A stretch of DNA of 64,000 nt from Halobium salinum. Lineage in GTDB: Archaea; Halobacteriota; Halobacteria; Halobacteriales; Haloferacaceae. The stretch's first letter is position 1; each line of letters starts with the position of its first letter. This document shows positions 58,151 to 59,716 of this stretch, piece after piece. Both the position numbers and the translations under genes were made by a program. The stretch is from assembly GCF_026586625.1 (NCBI RefSeq), contig NZ_JAODIW010000008.1, positions 553,811 through 617,810 on the forward strand, in the 5' to 3' direction. Below the pieces are notes generated by a model, which did no database searches, had not been told where the DNA came from, and saw nothing but the letters and a program-made list of their open reading frames with translations.

Positions 58151-58345
58151 TTACAGGCGCTGCAGGTTCGTCGCGCGCGGGCCCTTGTCGGCCTGCTCGA
58201 TGTCGAACTCGACTTCCTGACCCTCTTCGAGGTCCGGACCGCCGACGTCCTCCATGTGGAAGAACACGTCCTCGTCCGCATCGTCCGTCGAGATGAAACC
58301 GTAGCCGCCAGTGTCGTTGAAGAAGTCAACCTTCCCTTTCGCCAT
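58151..58345 (-). CDS. cspA1: Cold shock protein CspA, copy 1
   Basis: A 64-residue cold-shock domain (OB fold) that binds single-stranded RNA and DNA. RNP1 is GYGFIST and RNP2 is DVFFHMED; it begins MAKGKVDFFNDTGG and ends DKGPRATNLQRL. It is identical to the copy at 59288 except for one Glu/Asp residue (position 29). Nucleotide identity between the copies is also very high, with about four differences in 195 bases. A TATA-like ggataacc lies about 30 bases upstream of the ATG. The copies flank the Hcp-like gene. Confidence 0.96.
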   Translation of the reverse strand: MAKGKVDFFNDTGGYGFISTDDADEDVFFHMEDVGGPDLEEGQEVEFDIEQADKGPRATNLQRL

Positions 58346-58495
58346 TGCCTCTGGATACAATCGGAGTACACGGATAACCCTTGCGGGATTGGTCTGTGCA
58401 TGTCAACGGGCGTATCACCCGGTGGCGAACGGTCAGTCCGTACAGACCGCCCTGGAGCGCGTTCCGGGCGACAGAAGACCCATAATCCCGTGGAG

Positions 58496-58506
58496 CGCTT
58501 ATTTCT
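58496..58506 (+). promoter_or_regulatory. TATA box of the Hcp-like gene
   Basis: cgcttatttct has a TATA-like core (cttattt, 58498-58504) centred 26 bases before the GTG at 58527. It marks this GTG as the start and the transcript as leaderless. Confidence 0.55.
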
Positions 58507-58526: not shown

Positions 58527-59153
58527 GTGACAATCGAGACACCCACCCGGCGAGAGTTCATGGTGTACACCGGCGGTGCGACCGCGGCCACGGGGCTCGC
58601 GACTCCCGTCCGGGGGGCTCCCGGCGGCGGCACGGGCCGCTCCGCGGCGCTTCCCGTCGGTGGCACGGGACTACAGATCGGACAGAACAGCACGGGGTAC
58701 TTCCTCGACGTGCCCGACGTTCCGGGGGAGTCGACGGACAGCGCCCACAGAGACGAGATCGACGTCCTCGCGTGGAGTTGGGGGATGCGAAGAGCTGTCG
58801 ACGCCGGTACGGGCCGATTGAGCAAACCGGAGTACGATACCCTGTTGGCCACGAAGTACGTCGACCGGTCGACGACGGAGTTGATGCGTCGCTTCGTGGA
58901 CGGAACCGTGATACGGGAGGACGTGCGACTCAGCGCCGCCGCCCCGGTGGGAGAGAGCCGAGTCGACTACCTGACCGTTCTCCTCTCCAACGTGCTGGTC
59001 GTGTCACACGACGTGTCGACCGTCGAAGGCAGTGGTCCGGTCGAGGTCGTCGGTCTCGCCTTCGAGGCCGTCGACGTCACGTACCGGCTCTTCGGGGCCG
59101 GCGGGAGCGTGATAGAGGACCGCAACACCGTCTGGGAGACGGCGACCGGATGA
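58527..59153 (+). CDS. Tat-exported Hcp-fold protein (type VI secretion tube family relative)
   Basis: A 208-residue protein starting at GTG. MTIETPTRREFMVYTGGATAATGLA is a twin-arginine signal (ends near residue 35; no lipobox cysteine). Residues about 58-205 match the Hcp family of T6SS tube proteins: YFLDVPDVPGES with TDSAHRDEIDVLAWSWGMRR (consensus G-I-x-GES-x-D-x-x-H-x-x-EIDVLSWSWG), KYVDRSTTELMRRFVDGTVIRE, and VEVVGLAFEAVDVTYR. Bacterial Hcp lacks an export signal and is a cytoplasmic tube ring. Tat export implies an extracellular role. It lies between two cspA copies in the opposite orientation, with no T6SS genes. Family membership by eye is strong; function is unknown. Confidence 0.82.
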   Translation: MTIETPTRREFMVYTGGATAATGLATPVRGAPGGGTGRSAALPVGGTGLQIGQNSTGYFLDVPDVPGESTDSAHRDEIDVLAWSWGMRRAVDAGTGRLSKPEYDTLLATKYVDRSTTELMRRFVDGTVIREDVRLSAAAPVGESRVDYLTVLLSNVLVVSHDVSTVEGSGPVEVVGLAFEAVDVTYRLFGAGGSVIEDRNTVWETATG

Positions 59154-59287: not shown

Positions 59288-59482
59288 TTACAGACGCTGC
59301 AGGTTCGTCGCGCGCGGGCCCTTGTCGGCCTGCTCGATGTCGAACTCGACTTCCTGCCCCTCTTCGAGGTCCGGACCGCCGACGTCTTCCATGTGGAAGA
59401 ACACGTCATCGTCCGCATCGTCCGTCGAGATGAAACCGTAGCCGCCAGTGTCGTTGAAGAAGTCAACCTTCCCTTTCGCCAT
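59288..59482 (-). CDS. cspA2: Cold shock protein CspA, copy 2
   Basis: A 64-residue cold-shock domain protein identical to copy 1 (58151) except for one residue: Asp replaces Glu at position 29. RNP1 GYGFIST and RNP2 DVFFHMED are present. Coding sequences differ at about four positions and similarity stops immediately beyond the start codon, so only the gene body is duplicated or kept uniform by gene conversion. A TATA-like gtataagg is 26-33 bases upstream of the ATG. Confidence 0.96.
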   Translation of the reverse strand: MAKGKVDFFNDTGGYGFISTDDADDDVFFHMEDVGGPDLEEGQEVEFDIEQADKGPRATNLQRL

Positions 59483-59506
59483 TGCTCTTGAACACAGCAG
59501 AGGACG

Positions 59507-59517
59507 AGGTATAAGGC
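59507..59517 (-). promoter_or_regulatory. TATA box of cspA2
   Basis: aggtataaggc, read on the minus strand as gccttatacct, lies about 30 bases upstream of the ATG at 59482. Confidence 0.5.
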
Positions 59518-59716
59518 TTGTGCGAGACGCGCTACCTCGGAGGTAGGACCGCGGCGGGTTCCGTTCCGCGGGTTCCGCACTCGTAATTCGGTCGGGTCAC
59601 CGGTTCCAACTCCCTATCGGTCCGCAACGACCGCTTATCCTCCTGGAAACCGCCGAGCCAGCAGTTGTTGTCCTCTCCACTTACTGTCAAATATAAATTG
59701 CTTTGGGTCAGGCAAA

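Follow-up and report, generated by a model that had tools for sequence, protein, structure and literature searches.

Why would a haloarchaeon encode a relative of a bacterial injection-tube protein behind what appears to be an export signal, and does such a protein belong to an injection machine at all? In bacteria, Hcp forms the inner tube of the type VI secretion system (T6SS) injection machine, and it is treated as diagnostic of that system, a usage that database names follow. The hcp-like gene considered here lies in a 64,000-nucleotide stretch of contig NZ_JAODIW010000008.1 of Halobium salinum, which we refer to as the window, and its product is the sole Hcp of a genome of 4.46 Mb (99.35% complete).

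The gene occupies positions 58527..59153 of the forward strand as an intact open reading frame of 208 amino acids with a GTG start; re-reading the sequence returned the same reading frame, coordinates and Hcp motifs that the first-pass annotation had given. It has no companion genes and is bounded on both sides by cspA genes of the opposite strand, each contained in one copy of a 238-nt direct repeat (D1). Copy 1 lies at 58151..58388 on the reverse strand and includes a cspA cold-shock gene at 58151-58360 (CSD 71 bits), while copy 2, at 59288..59525 on the same strand, includes the cspA gene at 59288-59482 (CSD 70.6 bits). The copies are 90% identical and 1137 nt apart, and recombination between them could delete the hcp gene. 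The composition of the reading frame is host-like (GC3 0.83), and the mature protein is acidic, with 25 D+E against 15 K+R, as is expected for a haloarchaeon. Contamination as the source of the gene was ruled out by this host-like GC3 and protein composition and by the size of the contig, 1.1 Mb. A neighbouring deacetylase gene is rare in the family, which makes synteny through it uninformative.

The assignment to Hcp was upheld by both profile and structure comparisons. The Pfam profile T6SS_HCP (PF05638) matches with 83.3 bits (E=2.4e-23), far above its cut-off of 23.5 bits, over model positions 1-129 of 129, and defines an Hcp domain at residues 59-186 (58701..59084, forward strand); the closest natural sequence in the PDB, constructs fused to 1y12 aside, is P. 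aeruginosa Hcp1 (1y12, E=6e-18 in the sequence search). The comparison of an AlphaFold model with known Hcp structures, which the first-pass annotation had proposed, gave a concordant result: the model built from an alignment of 48 bacterial Hcp relatives has a pLDDT of 87 and presents the Hcp beta-barrel with one helix, an outcome that depends on that bacterial alignment. Foldseek and VIA align the domain to 1y12, 8yun and 3v4h, with Foldseek values against 1y12 of E 1.2e-13, TM 0.76/0.83 and 35% identity, and with VIA Z values of about 20-21 against the best Hcps and about 9-10 against phage and eCIS tube proteins, which have a related tube fold. A control AlphaFold run on the single sequence reached a pLDDT of only 37 and did not recover the Hcp fold without the alignment, so that the fold claim stands on homology and an alignment-based model; on this basis we consider it virtually certain that the protein would adopt a true Hcp fold.

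The T6SS tube subunit, TssD, is a hexameric ring of about 80-85 A. It is expected to have no N-terminal export signal and to be encoded in a genome with the sheath, baseplate and spike genes of a T6SS. The window protein carries a signal region of about 33 amino acids, and its score against the NCBIfam TssD profile (TIGR03344) is 28 bits, below the cut-off of 58.9. Profile searches of the whole genome gave no match to the T6SS sheath protein VipB and none over cut-off to TssK or VgrG, and no T6SS gene was found among the neighbouring ORFs read at 54 to 64 kb of the window, in agreement with the earlier statement that T6SS partner genes are missing nearby. By these comparisons the protein belongs to the Hcp-fold family but not with the TssD tube subunits, and it is almost certainly independent of a T6SS.

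Compared with T6SS Hcp as represented by P. aeruginosa Hcp1, the window protein shares the whole-domain fold, the EIDVLAWSWG strand and the TKYVD segment, and it differs in its Tat signal, in the absence of T6SS genes from its genome, in its low TIGR03344 score and in the degeneration of the stacking loop and of GGSGGEDRLTEN. In the alignment, 32 of the 54 columns conserved in canonical Hcps are retained, including GES, H-x-x-EIDVLAWSWG and TKYVD; the GGSGGEDR columns are lost, and the columns of the glycine-rich L2,3 loop and of GGSGGEDRLTEN are replaced or deleted, leaving these segments lost, shortened or degenerate. The “full conserved core” described by the first-pass annotation is consequently overstated, as the canonical core is kept only in part. 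By its alignment, DEIDVLAWSWG (residues 76-86; 58752..58784, forward strand) would correspond to the cargo-facing strand of T6SS Hcp rings; in P. aeruginosa Hcp3, the residues of the cargo lumen include S29 and S31 (PMC13323088). The L2,3 stacking loop falls approximately at 58785..58832 (forward strand), where the canonical SQSGxxHxGGGGGAGK is replaced by a segment about 3 residues shorter. Mutations in this loop of B. pseudomallei Hcp1 stop ring stacking while hexamers remain (PMC4650826), and in EAEC Hcp1 L4,5 and the C-terminus contribute to stacking as well (PMC3925092). True Hcps also differ among themselves in the L2,3 loop (PMC4650826), which makes its change weak when taken alone. The combination of a kept AWSWG strand and an altered stacking loop nevertheless suggests single rings instead of tubes: by analogy, the altered loop speaks against tube formation, and the kept cargo-facing strand fits a ring or a carrier. 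Of the roles that the first-pass annotation had offered, a stand-alone ring, a surface structure and a carrier are all possible. That the window protein forms hexameric rings without tubes is a tentative proposal, to which we give somewhat less than an even chance.

The twin-arginine signal region, VTIETPTRREFMVYTGGATAATGLATPVRGAPG, is encoded at 58527..58625 of the forward strand, with R8-R9 at 58548-58553. Its motif TRREFM (residues 7-12) fits the pattern S/T-R-R-x-F-L/M, and TRREFMVYTGGATAATGLA has the appearance of a haloarchaeal Tat signal placed ahead of the Hcp domain. Two TAT_signal profiles hit the protein with scores short of their cut-offs (15.7 vs 22.7 and 14.9 vs 16.7), and RRxF signals are also present in both haloarchaeal homologues described below. 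The Tat signal of the first-pass annotation is thus sustained by the motif and its recurrence, and export of the protein by Tat appears very probable from its sequence. The signal region shows no obvious A-x-A cleavage site and contains no cysteine, hence no lipobox; no C-terminal anchor is recognisable in the protein. The promoter that had been proposed is likewise plausible, as a box-A-like TTATTT is predicted at 58499..58504 (forward strand), 28 nt 5’ of the GTG, and hexamers of this type number only 5 in the 64-kb window, both strands counted, with a pattern that was chosen after the site was seen. A spacing of 28 nt between box A and start is that of a leaderless archaeal gene, and the site fits a leaderless hcp transcript. 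Scans for sigma-70-type promoters and for terminators found nothing; sigma-70-type signals are not expected in an archaeon. The additional idea that the protein should be secreted folded is less well founded, since a large share of secretion in haloarchaea normally goes through Tat (PMC3068169), and such a signal points to export as such more than to a need for folded export.

Exported Hcps are not limited to this organism. Among the 391 genomes of the class, Hcp is present in three, namely the window genome and two other haloarchaea, L002 (95.9 bits) and L003 (31.3 bits). All three proteins have Tat-type signals (RREF, RRAF and RRDF), the neighbours of the three genes are unrelated, and none of the three genomes has VipB; the suggested search for haloarchaeal orthologues with conserved neighbours therefore yielded the former and not the latter. 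A wider search of the archaeal phylum added L127, an Hcp with a lipoprotein-type signal from a further archaeal lineage. In the phylum of Pontiellaceae (Verrucomicrobiota), Hcp occurs in 27 of 289 genomes, many of them with Sec signals and often as tandem pairs, and some of the exported proteins carry TSP3, Ig-like or cadherin tails. Tandem Sec-exported Hcps are found, for example, at L021 5242-6855 and in L120, in Verrucomicrobiota genomes without VipB, and the second protein of the pair is often the longer one. With signals called by a simple hydrophobicity scan, the 13 Verrucomicrobiota genomes with signal-peptide Hcps, together with one borderline case (L096), all lack VipB, and the genomes with signal-less Hcps that were checked for VipB (G391, G394, G475 and G595) are positive in 4 of 4 cases; as some of the genomes may be incomplete and they are phylogenetically non-independent, this link between export and absence of VipB is a strong hint and not a statistical proof.

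The exported orphan Hcps (L002, L003, L127, those of Verrucomicrobiota, and L007) resemble the window protein in having an Hcp domain preceded by a Tat, Sec or lipoprotein signal at the N-terminus and in being encoded by genomes that mostly lack sheath genes; they differ in the type of signal and do not form one clade. Those of Verrucomicrobiota also depart from the window protein by their tandem pairs and C-terminal surface repeats. L007 (5415-6603), from a delta-proteobacterial MAG, encodes a signal-less Hcp followed by an Hcp with a Tat signal and a lipobox, and is set apart from the window protein by this signal-less neighbour and by the presence of VipB in its genome. No viral relative appeared in an IMG/VR scan, and no relative close enough for a test of purifying selection was found. 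Our literature search, beyond whose reach most subscription papers lie, found no description of exported, orphan or archaeal Hcp.

Most of the best bacterial relatives, whose identity reaches about 40%, are Hcps without a signal, and every one whose gene surroundings were read is part of a T6SS operon. On a 59-row tree, export changes state at least 5 times on well-supported branches, and forcing the exported and archaeal rows into one clade was rejected (p-AU 0.002), which indicates that Hcp export arose more than once. The window protein itself is a long branch, placed beside two beta-proteobacterial Hcps in one tree and beside L002, with a long-branch warning, in a second one. A bacterial T6SS-type Hcp ancestor is likely, and no more than likely because the long branch makes the placement of the window protein uncertain. 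A grouping with the second Hcps of L009 and L051 was considered and is not claimed: it reached 84/100 in one tree, was lost when more rows were included, and the AU test was non-decisive. Both loci (L009 3052-4152 and L051 5416-6501) belong to beta-proteobacterial T6SS operons in which a divergent second hcp directly follows the first, and the products of these second genes are shorter in the glycine loop and differ at the C-terminus. The window protein is no one-off and belongs to a scattered class with members among archaea and Verrucomicrobiota. What the first-pass annotation noticed is real and reaches somewhat further, to an exported form of Hcp, independent of the T6SS, with more than one origin and here present in a haloarchaeon.

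The explanation that we favour, with moderate confidence, is that of an orphan exported Hcp, independent of any T6SS and reused outside the cell as single rings that bind a ligand or a small protein. The presence of an export tag together with the absence of T6SS genes makes it probable that a part of an injection machine has been reused in this manner. An Hcp-fold protein would have been acquired, probably at a distant time, from a lineage of bacterial T6SS Hcps, and would have gained a Tat signal and a function outside the cell without any T6SS. As predicted from its sequence, the protein would reach its folded state in the cytoplasm, be carried across the membrane by Tat, and be released or held loosely under the S-layer, the latter two being suggested by the lack of a lipobox and of a recognisable C-terminal anchor. 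By analogy, it would most likely still assemble as single hexameric rings whose retained cargo-facing strand may bind the ligand or small protein; tubes of the T6SS type are unlikely given the changed stacking loop.

Other explanations start from the same observations. The Hcp domain may no longer form rings and may act as a monomeric extracellular beta-barrel for binding or adhesion, as could be imagined from the TSP3, Ig-like or cadherin tails of the verrucomicrobial proteins and from the many canonical columns that exported Hcps have lost; we regard this as rather unlikely, as no additional domain is present in the window protein, which keeps the DEIDVLAWSWG strand as ring-forming Hcps do. 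It is improbable that the gene was acquired horizontally, is useless now and is decaying, with an incidental signal peptide: its very patchy distribution (3/391 haloarchaeal genomes), its long branch with 32/54 conserved columns and the flanking 238-nt repeats that could excise it would agree with such a fate, but the reading frame is intact, with host-like GC3 and acidic composition, the box-A-like element is rare and well placed, and the type of signal is common to two divergent haloarchaeal homologues.

A cytoplasmic Hcp, whose translation would begin downstream, at the ATG at 58560, and leave out the Tat signal, is very improbable. The internal ATG (M12) exists and the Tat profiles score under their cut-offs; against this, the box A, 28 nt from the GTG, is too far away for the ATG to begin a leaderless message, an Hcp has no use for the TGGATAATGLA stretch, and the homologues have full Tat signals. 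The genome does hold an eCIS/PVC-like locus at about 368-387 kb of contig C10 (G000:C10; loci L132 and L133), with a sheath (PF04984/PF17482), a gp19-type tube (PF06841, 146.6 bits) whose gene adjoins that of the sheath, an AAA ATPase, a Pvc16_N protein and three eCIS_core proteins, one of them with pretoxin-TG and HINT domains. We give hardly any weight to the idea that the Hcp-like protein is an accessory tube or cargo carrier of this system, which has its own tube, sheath-adjacent and without a signal peptide, whereas the hcp gene is on a different contig, and its product carries an export signal and has no PF06841 match in the profile search; moreover, no eCIS-type sheath over cut-off is present in the other two Tat-Hcp haloarchaea. 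The existence of both the eCIS tube and these sheath-less haloarchaea argues against tying hcp to the eCIS. The earlier claim that injection-system partners are lacking is accordingly valid for the T6SS and requires qualification for this eCIS elsewhere in the genome.

Returning to the orphan exported Hcp, the occurrence of sheath-less exported Hcps in archaea and Verrucomicrobiota means that an Hcp match alone does not imply an injection system. It is possible, although we advance it with some doubt, that T6SS tube rings were co-opted several times in these lineages as stand-alone extracellular rings for ligand or cargo, with no injection machine. If rings form outside the cell, a tube component of the phage-tail kind would have turned into an extracellular structure, an idea that lends itself to testing in haloarchaea, for which gene deletion and secretion assays are standard. 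Three species of one genus from another archaeal family of the same phylum (L124-L126) also gave strong Hcp matches, with scores of up to 128.8 bits; these proteins are signal-less or have no clear signal, and in two of them a small cupin-like gene adjoins.
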